The notes under the pieces were generated by a model, which did no database searches, was not told the DNA's origin, and saw only the letters and a list, made by a program, of their open reading frames with translations. From positions 1 to 63,804 of the forward strand of contig ONQB01000017.1 in NCBI GenBank assembly GCA_900319905.1: 63,804 bases of DNA, written 5' to 3'. The DNA comes from an uncultured Prevotella sp. (lineage in GTDB: Bacteria; Bacteroidota; Bacteroidia; Bacteroidales; Bacteroidaceae). This document shows positions 2,947 to 62,763 of the stretch, one piece after another (position 1 is the stretch's first letter; each line of letters starts with the position of its first letter). The position numbers were made by a program, and so were the translations under genes.

Positions 2947-3020
2947 GGTTCCGTAGCTCAGCTGGATAGAGCAACAGCCTTCTAAGCTGTGGGTCTTGGG
3001 TTCGAATCCCAACGGAATCA
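2947..3020 (+). tRNA. tRNA-Arg (anticodon TCT)
   Basis: A full cloverleaf of 74 nt can be drawn. The acceptor GGTTCCG pairs with CGGAATC (one G-T pair). The D stem is GCTC/GAGC. The anticodon stem ACAGC/GCTGT carries loop CTTCTAA with anticodon TCT at 2981-2983. The T stem TTGGG/CCCAA has loop TTCGAAT. The discriminator base is A3020 and CCA is not encoded. It decodes AGA. Its 3' end is the source of the repeats that follow immediately. Confidence 0.95.
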
Positions 3021-3397
3021 CAAAAGTACATGATACAGCAACAACCAAAGCGCTGCTGGGTCATGGGCAGAATCCCAACGGAATCACAATTAGAATCCCA
3101 ACGGAATCACAAACGAACATGATACAGCAACAACCAAAGCGCTGCTGGGTCTTGGGTTCGAATCCCAACGGAATCACAAAAGTACATGATACAGCAACAA
3201 CCAAAGCGCTGCTGGGTCTTGGGTTCGAATCCCAACGGAATCACAATTAGAATCCCAACGGAATCACAAACAAACATGATACAGCAACAACCAAAGCGCT
3301 GCTGGGTCTTGGGCAGAATCCCAACGGAATCACAAACAAACATGATACAGCAACAACCAAAGCGCTGCTGGGTCTTGGATTTGAAGCCAAATGGAAT
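2991..3397 (+). repeat. Tandem array derived from the tRNA-Arg 3' end
   Basis: The tRNA variable arm, T arm and 3' acceptor strand are repeated downstream. The block GAATCCCAACGGAATCAC starts at 3004 (inside the tRNA), 3070, 3093, 3160, 3227, 3250 and 3316, with a decayed copy near 3382. A linker beginning ACATGATACAGCAACAACC starts at 3028, 3117, 3184, 3274 and 3340, that is at spacings of 89, 67, 90 and 66 bp. Two spacings sum to 156 bp, so 3028-3183 and 3184-3339 form a higher-order repeat. In each unit CAGCA in the linker can pair with TGCTG just before the copied variable arm, giving an anticodon-arm-like hairpin next to the copied T arm. The array is on the same strand as the tRNA and ends before the hairpin at 3406-3443. 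Confidence 0.9.
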
Positions 3398-3445: not shown

Positions 3446-4083
3446 GCTATTTGTAAATATAATTCTCAATATTTTAACACTTCGCAAGCACCCCGAAAAA
3501 TTGAGGAAACAAGCATTAAACAACGATATTGAGGACTTTTTCATCAAAGGAGACTGGCTTCGCATCGCTATATCGGCGAACAAGCTATGCCATATCGCCA
3601 TAAAGAAGGCTTGATTTCGCCGAATAAGCAACGGAATATCGCCGAATAAGCAACGGAATATCGCCGAAACTCCGATGGCGTTACTGTGATGGCAAAGCAA
3701 AATCTTAGACTTTAAATCACTAAACCGCTGACCGTCTGCTATTTACAAAGCAGGCAGCAAACTGGCCCACCATTCGCGTATTTGCAGCCAAGAATAGGCC
3801 CGTAGCAAATACGCAATTCTCAGAAGGGCGGTTGTAAACTATTTTAACCACGCGAAACCCTCGTTACCTCCCTAATATGTCCAGGTGTGTGCCAACACTC
3901 ATTACCAACGTCATCGTTGATTCACACTTGACAACCAGAAGCCACACTTAACACTGAATTACATCGACACAGAATTGTTTATTATGAGAAAACAATGTTT
4001 TAAACGTAAGATTAAGCCTTATTAAAGAGGTAATAGGCAAAATAAAAACGAGATTTCATAGGCATTATACGTCGATAATTTTG
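3446..4083. other. Intergenic region: 22-bp array and hairpin, no gene seen
   Basis: Apart from the 22-bp phased repeats at 3571-3680 there is a perfect 10-bp inverted repeat (3776-3785 with 3805-3814, core GCGTATTTGC). Open frames in this stretch are short, cross the repeats and resemble no protein. Confidence 0.5.
3571..3680. repeat. 22-bp phased intergenic repeat, locus A (5 units)
   Basis: Five consecutive units start at 3571, 3593, 3615, 3637 and 3659, exactly 22 bp apart. Each begins TATCG or TTTCG, followed in most by GCCGAA, AAGC and a GG near the end. Units 3 and 4 differ at a single position; the others are diverged but hold the phase. Related arrays lie at 23255, 30119 and 44951. 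Confidence 0.85.
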
Positions 4084-9680: not shown

Positions 9681-11196
9681 ACTCATTGCCAAGACCTTCA
9701 TGGGCTTGGAACCCGTCCTGGCACAAGAGCTCACGCAGCTGGGTGCCAACAACGTACAGATTGGCCGACGCATGGTGTCGTTCACAGGCGACAAAGAGAT
9801 GATGTATCGCGCCAACTTCCAGCTGCACACAGCCATCCGCGTACTCAAACCCATCAAACATTTCAAGGCACGCTCTGCCGATGACGTATATAATAATGTG
9901 AAAGACGTGGACTGGAGCCGCTACATTGCGAAAGGAAAGACCTTCGCCGTCGACTCCGTGGTCTACTCCGAGGAGTTCCGCAACTCCCACTTCGTCAGCT
10001 ACAAGGTAAAGGATGCCATCGTTGACCAGTTCCGCGAAAAGACTGGCGACCGTCCCAACATCTCACTGACCAACCCTGACATCCGGCTACACATCCACAT
10101 TGCCGACGACGACGCTACGCTGTGTCTCGACTCAAGCGGTGAGAGCCTGCACCGTCGTGGCTACCGCCAGGAGAGCGTCGAGGCACCTCTCAACGAGGTG
10201 CTGGCAGCAGGCATGATCCTCATGACCGGATGGAAAGGCGACTGCGACCTCATCGACCCCATGTGCGGATCAGGTACCATCGCTATTGAGGCCGCACTCA
10301 TCGCGCGCAATATCTCACCGGGCGTGTTCCGAAAAGGCTTCGCCTTTGAGAAATGGCCCGACTTCGATGCCGACCTCTTCGAACGCATCTACAACGACGA
10401 CAGCGCCGAACGTCCGTTTGAGCACCACATCTATGGATACGACATAGACATGAAAGCCGTCAACACTGCACGGCTCAACGTGAAGGCTGCCGGATTGTCA
10501 CAGGACATCACCATTGAGCAGCAGGACTTCAAGAACTTCAAGAAGCCGGCTGAGAAGAGCATCATCATCATGAACCCGCCCTATGGCGAACGCATCTCCA
10601 CCCCCGACCTGCTCGGCACCTACCGCATGATCGGAGAGCGGCTGAAGCATGAGTTCGGAGGCAACGAAGCCTGGATTCTCAGCTACCGCGAGGAGTGCTT
10701 TGAACAGATAGGCCTCAAACCCAGCATCAAGATACCCGTCTACAACGGTTCTCTCGAATGCGAGTTCCGCAAATACACGCTCTTCGACGGTAAGATGAAG
10801 ACTTTCCGGCAGGAAGGCGGAGTAGTGAAGACCGAACAGGAGAAGCGCGAGATGGCACAGAAGCACCGGTTCAAGAAAAACCGCGAGTTCAAGGAGCGTC
10901 TCGAGCAGGAAGAAGCCAACGAGAAAGGCGACATCCGCTCATTCACGTTCCATACGTTCAAGAACGAGGACCGGCCGCATTTCACACGCAAGAACTTCGA
11001 CGACGATAACGACAACTTCGACTACAAGAAGAGCTACAGCAGCAACAAGAAAAGCCGCAACGATTACAAGGGACGCGGTGAGTACAAAGGCCGTAACGAC
11101 TTCAAGCGGTCAGGATTCAAAGGCAGCAAAGGACAAGGTCATGGCCACGGCGGCAACAAGTTCTCGCGTGACCGTCGCTTCGAGGACGAGGATTAA
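9664..11196 (+). CDS. THUMP-domain 23S rRNA guanine-N2 methyltransferase, RlmL-like
   Basis: Predicted S-adenosylmethionine-dependent rRNA methyltransferase similar to the N-terminal half of E. coli RlmL (m2G2445). A THUMP RNA-binding domain covers about residues 45-155. Motif I DPMCGSGTIAIEA starts near 197 and the catalytic NPPYGER near 304. The last 125 residues (about 385-510) are a low-complexity tail rich in Lys, Arg, Gly, Asp and Asn (repeats such as YKGRGEYKGRNDFKR) and are likely disordered and RNA-binding. The frame starts inside the acetyltransferase gene (17-bp overlap), which suggests translational coupling. Confidence 0.88.
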   Translation: MEQEFELIAKTFMGLEPVLAQELTQLGANNVQIGRRMVSFTGDKEMMYRANFQLHTAIRVLKPIKHFKARSADDVYNNVKDVDWSRYIAKGKTFAVDSVVYSEEFRNSHFVSYKVKDAIVDQFREKTGDRPNISLTNPDIRLHIHIADDDATLCLDSSGESLHRRGYRQESVEAPLNEVLAAGMILMTGWKGDCDLIDPMCGSGTIAIEAALIARNISPGVFRKGFAFEKWPDFDADLFERIYNDDSAERPFEHHIYGYDIDMKAVNTARLNVKAAGLSQDITIEQQDFKNFKKPAEKSIIIMNPPYGERISTPDLLGTYRMIGERLKHEFGGNEAWILSYREECFEQIGLKPSIKIPVYNGSLECEFRKYTLFDGKMKTFRQEGGVVKTEQEKREMAQKHRFKKNREFKERLEQEEANEKGDIRSFTFHTFKNEDRPHFTRKNFDDDNDNFDYKKSYSSNKKSRNDYKGRGEYKGRNDFKRSGFKGSKGQGHGHGGNKFSRDRRFEDED

Positions 11197-22334: not shown

Positions 22335-22357
22335 TTGTTAGACTCAAGTATATAATT

Positions 22358-22423
22358 GAGGCTGTATTAAAATTGGAGAAGTCCGGACTTCTGGACTTCT
22401 CCAATTTTGATACAGCCTCTTTT
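22358..22423 (+). terminator. Long terminator hairpin after the permease gene
   Basis: The arms GAGGCTGTAT-AAAATTGGAGAAGTCC and their complement form a stem of about 26 bp with one mismatch near its middle and a short loop, followed by TTTT. The arm shares GTATTAAAATTGGAGAAGTCC-type sequence with the terminator at 20503, so the two hairpins are related copies. Confidence 0.9.
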
Positions 22424-22436
22424 CATTAACCGTATT

Positions 22437-23069
22437 AGAGCTACCAATTACCTTAAGAGCACTACCTTTCCATCTTCCATATTCCTAACTTCGTCATCTT
22501 TTTGTAGAAACAAAATAATATGGTTGATTACCAATCTGTTATAAAGGTTCTCGGGTAATAATGGTGACGCATAGCCAAAGAAAAAAGAAAATGGTCACTG
22601 ACAGTCTTCCGCTCCCAATGGAGCTATGGTTCTGAAGCAAAGGTGTAGCCTTACGAGCAAGCTCGCAGGCTACACCTTTGCTTCAGAACCACACCTAAGG
22701 TGTCAAGCCTGTCAATGACGAAAATCGCTTCGCGTAAAATTGCCCTTCGGGCATAAAATAATGCAGCAGAAAAGCCGTTTTGGTTACTTATTTGGCAATT
22801 CATTTCTTACAGGCCATATTTTATGCCCGAAGGGCAATTTTACGCAAAGCGATTTTCGTCATCGATAGGCTTGTACCCCGAAGGGGTGAGGCTAAGGTTA
22901 CGGGATAGCCGTCGAGCTTGCTCGTAAGGCGATCCCGTAACCTTAGCCTCAGGAGCTCCATCGAGAGCGAAAGCCTGACGATGACTATTTTCCTTTAATA
23001 GGGTGACGCATTGGCGAAGTCAAGAGCTACCGATTACCTTAAGAGCACTACCTTTCCATCTTCCATATT
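22437..23069. repeat. Large nested palindromic element between 47-bp direct repeats
   Basis: The direct repeats at 22437-22483 and 23023-23069 differ at one of 47 positions. Between them lies a roughly symmetric structure: a 23-bp stem (22628-22650 with 22668-22690), a central 46-bp inverted repeat with one mismatch (22715-22760 with 22817-22862), and a 19-bp stem (22888-22906 with 22932-22950). The loops of the first and third stems are reverse complements of each other (CGAGCAAGCTCG versus CGAGCTTGCTCG). Weaker inverted similarity extends to about 22590 and 22990. There is no protein-coding frame, so this is a non-autonomous or structural element. Confidence 0.85.
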
Positions 23070-23254
23070 GATACAAAACACGCGCAGATAATGTCCGCTT
23101 TTTTCATGTATTTTTAACATTGTGAAGGGGCATGAAACCAATAAGGACACCCATTGTTCAGATTACGCCCGTTATAAAGCGGATTAATCAAATCGCTGAG
23201 CATCAATCTATTACATTGAAATGAGCACTATCTAACGGCTTTCATCTTCTACAA

Positions 23255-23386
23255 TTATCCCGAAAAGGCATCGGAATATCGGCGAAAAGCCGATGGACAT
23301 ACGCCGAAAAGCCAATGACATCTCGCCGAAAAGCCAATGCCGTTTCGGCGATATCTACTCTTCATTTCGTCGAAACAGCGTTGCCC
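23255..23386. repeat. 22-bp phased intergenic repeat, locus B (6 units)
   Basis: Units start at 23255, 23277, 23299, 23321, 23343 and 23365, exactly 22 bp apart. The best conserved core is CGGCGAAAAGCCGATGG in the second unit and CGCCGAAAAGCCAATG in the third and fourth. The outer units are decayed but keep the phase. Confidence 0.85.
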
Positions 23387-30118: not shown

Positions 30119-30206
30119 CTTACGCATCCAAATGGCTTGTTTTCCCAAAATCAAATGGCTTCTTTCCCATATTCAAATGGCACCCTTCGCCTATGAAATG
30201 AGCCCG
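30119..30206. repeat. 22-bp phased intergenic repeat, locus C (4 units)
   Basis: Units begin at 30119, 30141, 30163 and 30185. Units 2 and 3 share TTTCCCA and TCAAATGGC at fixed positions. The core differs from loci A, B and D, but the 22-bp period and the ATGGC end of the unit are the same. The rest of the 500-bp gap between rseC and glmM holds only the rnf promoter and the glmM terminator. Confidence 0.75.
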
Positions 30207-44704: not shown

Positions 44705-44950
44705 ATCATTGCGCAGAAAACAATCTATTTCTCTTTCTATTCGTTGTTTATACTTGCAACTATTAGCCACCAGCGAGGCTCCTTCCCAGAGATATGGAAT
44801 GGCAAGCTACTACCGTCAACTCCGAGGCTGTTGATATGGGAGAAAATAGGAAATTAGTTTACAAAACGACGTTGTGGGTTTTCCGTCGTTTTGAAGAGGA
44901 AATTGGCTAAAATCGTCAAGAAAACCCATAAAAATCAAGGCAGCACCGGC
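44705..44950. other. Intergenic region, no gene seen
   Basis: The stretch between the tetR promoter and the 22-bp array has only an imperfect repeat around AAAACGACG and GTCGTTTT (44861-44891). Open frames here run into the repeats and resemble no protein. Confidence 0.4.
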
Positions 44951-45082
44951 CTTACGGCGAAATGTGCTCGGCCTTACGGCGAAAAGCCGATGGCTCTTCG
45001 GCGAGAAGCCGATGGCTCTTCGGCGAAAGGGCAGTGCCTCTACGGCGAAAAGCCGAGCCGCTTTCGACACTTTCATGAGACC
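44951..45082. repeat. 22-bp phased intergenic repeat, locus D (5-6 units)
   Basis: Units start at 44951, 44973, 44995, 45017 and 45039, exactly 22 bp apart, with a decayed sixth at 45061. The shared core is ACGGCGAAAAGCCGATGGC. Each unit has an internal dyad (CGGC/GCCG). This is the best-preserved of the arrays and lies between divergent genes (tetR and the GNAT-Nudix gene). Confidence 0.92.
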
Positions 45083-57788: not shown

Positions 57789-57876
57789 ATCTATGCGTTA
57801 AACGATACGGTCAAATGGGCTAAACGGCAACATGCGACGAAATCATTTCCTTCTTGTGACGAACATTTGAAGAAAG
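57789..57876. repeat. Weak fifth 22-bp phased array (locus E)
   Basis: Units 57789 and 57811 share TAAACG at the same offset; units 57833 and 57855 share TGnGACGAA at the same offset. The phase is 22 bp, but the two pairs differ from each other, so this is a tentative member of the family. It lies between the fimbrillin operon promoter and the end of the histidine kinase gene. Confidence 0.4.
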
Positions 57877-61350: not shown

Positions 61351-62700
61351 ATGAAAACGAAGCATTATATACTTTTGTCGGGGTTGCTGATGGCCCTGAG
61401 TGTTCACGGACAAGAGGCGTGGACGCTCAACCGCTGCATCGCCTATGCGCGCACACACGCCTCCGAGGTGAGACGGCAGACACTGGAACAGGAGCAGAAG
61501 CGCGCCGACTATCGCACGTCGCTGCTCGACTTCCTGCCCTCGGTGTCGGCGGAGGCCAACGGACAATACAGCTGGGGCCGCAACATCGACCCGGAGACCA
61601 ACACCTATAATAATGTCACCACGTTCAACAACTACTATGCTCTCGGCGCCTCTGTGACGCTCTTCGACGGCGGTGCTACTTGGAACGCCTTCCGGCAGGC
61701 CCGGCTCGACAGGGCCTCGGCACAGAGCGCCATTGACAAAGCCAGCGACGACAAGGCCATGAGCGTGATGGAGAAATATGTCGATGCCGTCTACACCCGT
61801 AGTACCATCGCTCTCACTGAGGAGAAACTGCGTGACTCAAAGGCGCTCTTGGTAAAGACCCGCCGCATGTTCGACCTCGGCGAGAAGAGCCGGCCCGACG
61901 TGGTGCAAGTAGAGAGCCAGGTGGCGGAGGATGAGTACAATCTCTTGCACCAGCGCAACCTTGCCGACAAGGCTCTGGCCGACCTGAAGACGGCCATGAA
62001 CTATCCGACCGACGACACGCTCTTGGTAGCCGGTCTGCCCGTCGATGTCGCCGCTGCCGCCATGCTGCCCGCCAACCGCCGGGCCTGCGACAGCCTGATA
62101 GCGAGTGGCTACTTCCTTGCCGACCGTCCTGCCGTGGCCGTAGCCGAGGCAGCTGCCGAACGAGCCCGGCTGTCGTGGAAGATACAGCGCGCTGCGCTCC
62201 TGCCCAAGCTCACGCTGAGCGGCGGCGTAGCAACCAACTACTACAAAAATCTCACAGCAGGCGGGCGGACTGAGGGTTTCGGCTCACAGTTCCACAACAA
62301 CATGGGTGAGTATGTTTACCTCTCTCTTTCCATACCCATCTTCAATGCTTCGTCGTGGAACAAGGTCCGAAGGGCTAAGACCGACTGGCAGGAAGCCCGC
62401 CTTGATGTGGAGAACGCACGCCGCAAGCAGCACGACGATGCCTTGCAGGCCGTCCTCGACTACCGTGGCTACGCCCGCGAGGTGGAGCAGCTGCAGCGCA
62501 AGGTGGCCTCTGACTCATTGGCGCACCACCTCTCTGATCGCAAGTACGAGGAAGGCATGCTCAGCGTCTTCGACCTGCACACCGCCTCGCAGACCTTGCT
62601 GCAAAGCCGCCTCCTCCTGCTGCAAAGCGAGATGATGCTGGCACTGAAGGCAAGGCTCGTCAACTATTACATCACAGGGGAGTTAGGAGTTAGGAGTTAG
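61351..62700 (+). CDS. TolC-family outer-membrane efflux protein
   Basis: A 449-residue outer-membrane channel for a tripartite exporter. A signal peptide (MKTKHYILLSGLLMALSVHG) precedes the TolC-type domain with two repeat halves of long helices and strands (WTLNRCIAYARTHASEVRRQ; later LQSRLLLLQSEMMLALKARL). The ATG at 61351 is chosen because the signal peptide begins there and it lies just downstream of the sigma-54 promoter; the open frame extends 10 codons upstream to a TTG. The last few codons and the stop are inside a 7-bp repeat tract, so slippage would change the C terminus. hlyD follows after 76 bp. Confidence 0.9.
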   Translation: MKTKHYILLSGLLMALSVHGQEAWTLNRCIAYARTHASEVRRQTLEQEQKRADYRTSLLDFLPSVSAEANGQYSWGRNIDPETNTYNNVTTFNNYYALGASVTLFDGGATWNAFRQARLDRASAQSAIDKASDDKAMSVMEKYVDAVYTRSTIALTEEKLRDSKALLVKTRRMFDLGEKSRPDVVQVESQVAEDEYNLLHQRNLADKALADLKTAMNYPTDDTLLVAGLPVDVAAAAMLPANRRACDSLIASGYFLADRPAVAVAEAAAERARLSWKIQRAALLPKLTLSGGVATNYYKNLTAGGRTEGFGSQFHNNMGEYVYLSLSIPIFNASSWNKVRRAKTDWQEARLDVENARRKQHDDALQAVLDYRGYAREVEQLQRKVASDSLAHHLSDRKYEEGMLSVFDLHTASQTLLQSRLLLLQSEMMLALKARLVNYYITGELGVRS

Positions 62701-62763
62701 GAATTAGGAGTTAGAAGTTAGGAGTTAGAAGTTAGGAGTTAGAAGTTAGAAGTTAGAAGTTAT
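62680..62763 (+). repeat. 12 tandem 7-bp repeats at the end of tolC
   Basis: Twelve contiguous heptamers of the form GAGTTAG or AAGTTAG (one GAATTAG, last AAGTTAT) run from 62680 to 62763. They cover the last codons of tolC and most of the gap to hlyD. As 7 is not a multiple of 3, loss or gain of a unit shifts the tolC C-terminal frame slightly and changes the spacing to hlyD. Confidence 0.95.

Follow-up and report, generated by a model that had tools for sequence, protein, structure and literature searches.

Short arrays of contiguous 22-bp units are abundant between the genes of an uncultured Prevotella species, and 22 bp is also the leading intergenic period in three other genomes of the genus. 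Our best explanation, to which we assign a probability of roughly 0.5, is that these arrays form the interior of non-coding, MITE-like repeats dispersed between the genes of Prevotella-like bacteria. Because the array of one same-genus genome (G017) belongs to a discrete dispersed element, mobile repeats are favored over free-standing operator sites, although evidence for discrete elements is weaker in the genome from which our search began (G000) than in G017. We read the sequences as indicating that the geometry of the arrays, rather than their sequence, is conserved.

Arrays in the window

The window, a stretch of 63,804 bp, is the whole of contig C13 of G000, a 3.11-Mb draft genome. Arrays were scored by lag-22 identity in 66-base windows. 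As a control, the whole window was shuffled 100 times under a first-order Markov model; the maximum score of these shuffles was 36 and the mean 31.1. The relevant features are as follows.

3571..3680, no strand: 22-bp array of about 5 units, TCGCCGAATAAGCAACGGAATA type; lag-22 score 46/66; TRF
23255..23386, no strand: 22-bp array (GGCGAAAAGCCGATGG type, ~6 units) between convergent genes; lag-22 score 46
30119..30206, no strand: weaker array of a different unit (TTTGGGAAAACAAGCCATTTGG-like) with some indels; score 38, which beats all 100 shuffles
44849..44950, + strand: left flank of the 44951 array, common to other arrays according to flank alignments
44951..45075, no strand: 22-bp array of about 5 units, TTCGGCGAAAAGCCGATGGCTC, with dyads every 11 bp; lag-22 score 51 (for 44951-45060)
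57789..57876, no strand: locus claimed as a weak array; score 29, indistinguishable from chance

The original prediction named five loci with an exact 22-bp period and a common core. Four of them lie above every shuffle at lag 22, but the fifth, at 57789, does not. Three of the four have a core of GGCGAAAAGCCGATGG type, whereas the unit of the 30119 array differs. The period itself is as exact as had been proposed, in that lags 20, 21, 23 and 24 score only 16-33 at the four supported loci. TRF gives 87% matches and 3% indels for the 30119 array and 8% indels for one part of the 23255 array, whose units, when written out, are still in a 22-base frame. Diverged units stay in phase. The expected internal dyad was likewise seen, and most arrays repeat it at 11-bp steps.

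The 3571 array lies where an FtsH-like and a BcrAD-like gene diverge, with a tRNA gene upstream of the array, and the 30119 array adjoins a phosphomannomutase-like gene. TetR-like and GNAT/NUDIX genes in divergent orientation are separated by the 697-bp gap that contains the 44951 array, whose dyad centers are at 44990, 45001, 45012, 45023, 45034 and 45045. By eye, the left flank of this array carries a small inverted repeat, CAAAACGACG..CGTCGTTTTG, and flank and array together (44849-45069) align with C26:118306-118526 at 71% identity. Apart from a tRNA, no Rfam family was matched in the window.

Other repeats are present in the window. Tandem duplications of ~66-156 bp that include a repeated tRNA 3' half (GGGTCTTGGGTTCGAATCCCAACGGAATCACA) extend over 2986-3397, immediately beyond the tRNA gene (2947-3020). 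Long imperfect inverted repeats with arms ATGCCCGAAGGGCAATTTTACGC and GGCTACACCTTTGCTTCAGAACC are found at 22335-23070, in the same convergent gap as the 23255 array, and related copies of them are present elsewhere in the G000 sample described below. A 7/14-bp array, GGAGTTAGAAGTTA (6 copies of 14 bp), at 62679-62762 overlaps the end of a long mechanical ORF.

Abundance and placement in the window genome

A 463-kb sample of G000, consisting of the window and 399 kb taken as stretches, contains 24-26 lag-22 regions, at least one of which is a simple short-unit repeat. At a cut-off of 40 or more of 66, lag 22 yields 24 regions and lags 20, 23, 25 and 26 yield 0-1 each; one Markov shuffle of the sample produced no region at any lag. 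The check that had been proposed, genome-wide enrichment of period 22, therefore came out in favor of the arrays: they are neither restricted to the loci of the window nor matched in shuffled sequence. When each array was assigned one best period, 22 was the commonest among intergenic arrays (21/53, with 3 more at 44).

Intergenic location, also part of the original prediction, was borne out with a rough home-made gene caller. The midpoints of all 24 arrays in the sample, one of them at a contig edge, fall outside called genes, and none of the 11 arrays assigned to the inside of called genes has period 22. The 30119 array is below the cut-off of this midpoint count and also lies between ORFs. 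By orientation, the 24 arrays comprise 8 in divergent, 10 in tandem and 5 in convergent gaps, plus 1 at an edge, so, on the question whether arrays mark gene-orientation boundaries, they single out no one kind.

Array sites occur about once per 19 kb of the sample. Scaling to the whole genome gives roughly 140-175 arrays, and the pattern TCGNCGA-N15-TCGNCGA, with up to 1 mismatch, is found at 312 places in G000 versus 10 for the reversed control. The earlier estimate of hundreds per genome thus holds roughly.

Arrays of the main G000 family share flanks with one another (13/15 loci, 19/105 pairs). However, control gaps of G000 share flanks too (19/34 loci, 50/561 pairs), so the flank evidence is weak in this genome, whose intergenic DNA is repeat-rich throughout. 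Borders of a putative element around the G000 arrays are partly resolved and are suggestive only. At C30:129418-130051 (L049) and C26:1505-1752 (L038), a single leader, TAATATTTAGATAGAGGCCATTGGGGACGCTGATACATAG, adjoins two unit families, CAACGGTTTCCTGCGCTCCGTG and GTGCGCCCATTTTAGGTGTTGA, the second of which is without a dyad. Elsewhere (C26:46930-47054, L040), a 22-bp array passes straight into an array of 8-bp type, GGTAGGAA/GGTAGGCA.

A dispersed 184-bp element in G017

In G017, the array is the interior of a dispersed element. Its core pattern has 213 matches and its tail pattern 126 in 2.8 Mb, or about one core match per 13 kb, and the reversed controls of both patterns have 0 matches. The core pattern was not found in G000, G010 or G016. 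We aligned 30 copies, the best-ranked of 79 matches, of which 40 were scored as full-length. The aligned copies measure 184 bp in 28 cases and 185 bp in the other 2, and all are bounded by GTAAATATTTTTC and GAATTATCTTTAC. In this alignment, the imperfect end repeats GTAAATATTTTTC and GTAAAGATAATTC are short and A-T rich, with 10/13 positions identical. Per-site diversity falls from 0.237 in the leader to 0.056 in the array and 0.021 in the tail, values lowered by the choice of copies for similarity to one copy; one extra T was taken out of each 185-bp copy before this count.

A second set was selected by the tail and consists of the first 30 listed of the 126 tail matches, one of which ends at a contig end, without unit letters. 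All 30/30 of these copies have the same spacing between first unit and tail, so the number of units is fixed at four in this set. At C88:50618 and 50640, two core matches are 22 bp apart, and this place perhaps holds a five-unit copy.

Loops of the element vary unequally. Loop 3, between units 3 and 4, is variable, with ACAACGC in 10 copies and its reverse complement, GCGTTGT, in 3 or 4 depending on the copy set; units 3 and 4 themselves are complementary at only 13/15 letters in 18/30 copies. Among copies chosen by similarity, 30/30 have one and the same loop between units 2 and 3; by eye, this loop differs in at least two copies chosen by tail (L336, L356).

The contexts of 30 elements are 6 ++, 8 --, 10 convergent, 4 divergent and 2 unresolved, a lean toward convergent gaps (10/28 resolved versus 5/24 background gaps). 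Neighboring genes look ordinary by eye, for example ribBA- and exbB-like genes in L241. A search of the 30 copies for target-site duplications (offsets -3 to 3, lengths 2-9) revealed no similarity of left and right flanks with z>2 over shuffled pairing. Because conserved bases are found outside the assumed borders, the true ends of the element may lie further out.

Period 22 in relatives

A three-unit pattern was used to search one genome per species (84,980 species). Among the matches listed, 46/80 are in Prevotella/Prevotellaceae, which make up the main part and include Prevotella sp. oral taxon 376 and KH2C16; from this distribution G000 was judged to be Prevotella-like. Outside Bacteroidota, matches to the three-unit 22-bp TCGSCGA pattern were obtained in Cerasicoccus frondis (L072, L111, L135) and Kiritimatiellae (L088, L090), more than once per genome and with palindromic-looking units; here the period is imposed by the search pattern.

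A check of relatives had also been proposed, and 22 proved to be the leading intergenic period, N runs excluded, in the same-genus genomes G016 (14/30), G010 (15/25) and G017 (11/12, after removal of a CA repeat from a set of 13). Their consensus units are approximately TGACGCANATTACANNGTNATT in G016, AAAAGGTNACCTTTTACTCATT in G010 and AAAACCGTAGGTTTTGCACGGT in G017, and the core sequence of G000 is near background in same-genus genomes. Smaller samples contain 2 arrays in G004, 1 in G005 and 1 in G007. By best period, no 22-bp array was found in 200 kb of G009, 80 kb of G020, 100 kb of G022 (which has one at lag 22), or 100 kb from each of three genomes of other families. G009, of the same genus, carries 21 intergenic heptad (7-bp) arrays in its 200 kb and zero of 22 bp (L066-L070, L213-L217). 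G020 has 11-bp direct repeats, half of 22, at L230:8097-8282 and 10167-10308 (TTCGACGTAGA, TAGCTGGCCGA).

Single-linkage clustering of unit sequences (>14 of 22) divides 77 arrays into 16 clusters. The largest, with 43/77 arrays, is loose; it joins the main families of G000, G010, G017 and G004 and one G005 array, which have an AAAA/TTTT pattern in common. The other 15 clusters include G016, and one of the 15 is a simple CCTTCC-type run. Judged by this clustering, the statement that units have different sequences is true of the other 15 clusters and not strictly of every species pair. Selection on geometry is favored, because the period is kept across same-genus genomes with other unit sequences.

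A comparison of orthologous flanks covered 31 loci from genomes other than G000. Lag 22 is the most frequent there: 12 places pass threshold 36 and 8 pass 38. Lag 18 follows (6 and 1, respectively); then, at threshold 36, come lags 15, 23 and 30 (4 each) and lag 21 (3). Conservation of position, which had been raised as a possibility, is not clear. No lag-22 stretch precedes the three closest BcrAD-like orthologs (84, 76 and 71% identity; L298-L300), where the 3571 array therefore lacks a counterpart, and some such stretch is upstream at 3/20 fetched loci from other genomes (L301, L306, L317). Among GNAT/NUDIX orthologs that reach the protein start, 1/3 (L319) has an upstream array, of another sequence than the 44951 array. 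A close strain was not found, and among the six relatives compared, whose intergenic DNA is hardly alignable, no pair of insertion and empty site was seen.

Symmetry and folding

Reverse-complement symmetry, assessed by within-unit shuffling, reaches p of 0.05 or less in 44/72 arrays (16/26, 8/16, 10/18 and 10/12). The consensus units, read by eye, most often consist of an 8-letter word and its reverse complement, each followed by 3 letters, and dyad centers recur every 11 bp in most arrays inspected. The remaining 28/72 arrays fail this test, and some families with an exact 22-bp period, such as GTGCGCCCATTTTAGGTGTTGA in G000, are without a dyad; hairpin formation alone is therefore insufficient to explain the period.

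Covariation across array centers was examined with a trimmed test. Complementarity around the best center of single arrays exceeds that of column shuffles at p<0.05 in 22/72 arrays, where 3.6 are expected. Selection for hairpins and inverted-repeat conversion would each fit this excess, which gives no guide to choosing between them. DNA-fold z-scores are -8.9 for the G017 element, -8.2 for a G010 array, -2.8 for the 23255 array, and -2.7 (plus strand) and -2.0 (minus strand) for the 44951 array; that of the 3571 array is modest (-1.5). At lag 11, A-T content correlates at +0.13 to +0.26 in G010, G016 and G017 and at -0.05 in G000. Because A-T is unphased at 11 bp in G000, phased A-tract bending was ruled out as a general explanation.

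Comparison with known repeats

The nearest published relative in design that we found is BrickBuilt of Porphyromonas gingivalis, a dispersed intergenic element with leader, tail and terminal inverted repeats that contains 23-nt repeats with dyads and long stem-loops (PMC4596501). In the strain described, 19 segments hold 1 to 22.8 units, and unit number varies between strains; 41-, 23- and 22-nt repeats had been noted earlier in strain W83, and the portion of the description drawn on here names no parent element (PMC4596501). The repeats reported here appear to follow the same design, as dispersed intergenic elements of Bacteroidales in which a short tandem repeat lies between leader and tail, with putative terminal inverted repeats. 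As far as that description goes, they are set apart by a 22-bp unit in place of 23 nt, by arrays that are short (median about 5 units) and, in G017, of fixed length where BrickBuilt varies in copy number, by far more numerous copies, and by a period common to different unit sequences in several genomes. What is new is the 22-bp pitch, which appears to be conserved over different sequences and genomes, together with the fixed array length in G017 and a far higher copy number. Among the listed open-licence PMC papers that were inspected, none deals with 22-bp Prevotella arrays.

REP/BIME sequences with RAYT are high-copy intergenic palindromes that are clustered and have a species-specific sequence. 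The arrays share each of these properties but have a strict head-to-tail pitch of 22 bp and occur in divergent gaps. An origin through RAYT, a Y1 transposase, was rejected for G000, as PF01797 has 0 matches in G000 and matches in 5/14 control genomes. Contiguous protein sites at helical pitch are known from the met boxes of MetJ and the end sites of Tn7 and Mu, and in Tn7/Mu ends the pitch is 22 bp. Our arrays resemble these sites in their contiguous units at helical pitch, and Tn7/Mu ends also in the 22 bp, but number over a hundred loci per genome and have species-specific letters. Mu-transposase-C (PF09299) was matched neither in five genomes nor in any of 14 controls. Arrays and CRISPRs are alike in being short periodic repeats between genes; CRISPR was rejected, as in the original prediction, because the units are contiguous, without spacers.

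Alternative explanations

A host DNA-binding protein, nucleoid or regulatory, might occupy the arrays as a dimer or polymer bound to half sites that follow one another at 11-bp intervals along the same face of the helix, with a recognition sequence that evolves fast between species and a footprint that stays constant. Such a protein lattice would account for the constant pitch equally well and could be combined with the mobile-repeat reading; as an explanation by itself we consider it rather doubtful. The fixed period of 22 across several genomes and unit families, the symmetry of the half sites, and arrays in divergent gaps away from genes, such as that at 44951, all speak for it, as does the greater conservation of array columns than of the leader in G017, a comparison among copies chosen by similarity. 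However, with 16 clusters among 77 arrays (one a simple repeat), several proteins or a sequence-blind one would be needed. The G017 array is also tied to a fixed tail, and position is not clearly conserved at the orthologs of the 3571 and 44951 loci. A neutral minisatellite, in which replication slippage or hairpin-templated duplication sets a functionless 22-bp step, seems unlikely. It would explain why units are alike within arrays and why other periods, 7 bp in G009 and 11 bp in G020, occur in relatives, and inversions of loops are typical products of template switching. Slippage, in contrast, would not be expected to leave the distance from unit to tail invariant in the 30 tail-selected G017 copies, and there is no obvious reason why it should favor 22, and hardly 20, 21, 23 or 24, in four genomes of GC 0.40-0.54.

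The arrays might instead act in RNA, as terminators, mRNA stabilizers or processed hairpins similar to BIMEs, which we regard as quite improbable. Folding does give long hairpins for G010 and G017 arrays, one side being rich in A and the other in T, only 1/18 G010 arrays is in a divergent gap, and the lean of G017 elements toward convergent gaps points the same way. Yet, for G000, G016 and G010 together, divergent gaps hold 11/57 arrays for which both neighbors are known (8/23, 2/16 and 1/18, respectively) versus 66/325 background gaps of at least 120 bp (28/130, 21/93 and 17/102), and convergent gaps likewise hold 11/57 arrays versus 66/325. This lack of overall depletion in divergent gaps, despite 1/18 in G010 alone and 4/28 for G017 elements, disfavors intrinsic terminators in particular. 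The 44951 array, moreover, is upstream of both flanking genes and, judged by eye from nearby TAnnTTTG sequences, which we take to be promoter-like boxes, outside their mRNAs, and the tRNA is the only Rfam match in the window.

A possible mechanism and its implications

If the arrays are parts of mobile repeats, a plausible course of events would begin with non-autonomous, hairpin-rich elements that spread through copying in trans by some enzyme and whose copies survive only between genes, being purged from genes. When the DNA is replicated or mobilized, the palindromic units may form or extrude hairpins, which would explain loop flipping and arm-to-arm complementarity. The recognized feature would be the geometry of the hairpin or cruciform, or else a multimer would dock every one to two turns. 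Either could keep arrays at ~4-6 units and 22 bp, and recognition of geometry could hold the spacing fixed while letters drift.

A broader proposal, which we advance tentatively as a possibility, is that these arrays form a genus-wide intergenic lattice. About 4-6 palindromic 22-bp units, arranged head to tail with half-units of 11 bp corresponding to one turn of underwound DNA, would be read by a sequence-tolerant, self-assembling protein or by one specific to hairpins or cruciforms, at ~100-200 places on each chromosome, to which mobile elements would carry it.

When the length of a repeat is conserved across species but its letters are replaced, the implication is that a distance of 22 bp (or 11 bp) is being measured in these genomes. 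Mouth, rumen and gut harbor Prevotella-like bacteria in large numbers. The arrays offer a handle on the spread of mobile elements, on hairpin dynamics or on chromosome organization in these bacteria, and, at such density, the elements may shape assembly breaks, recombination and gene neighborhoods.
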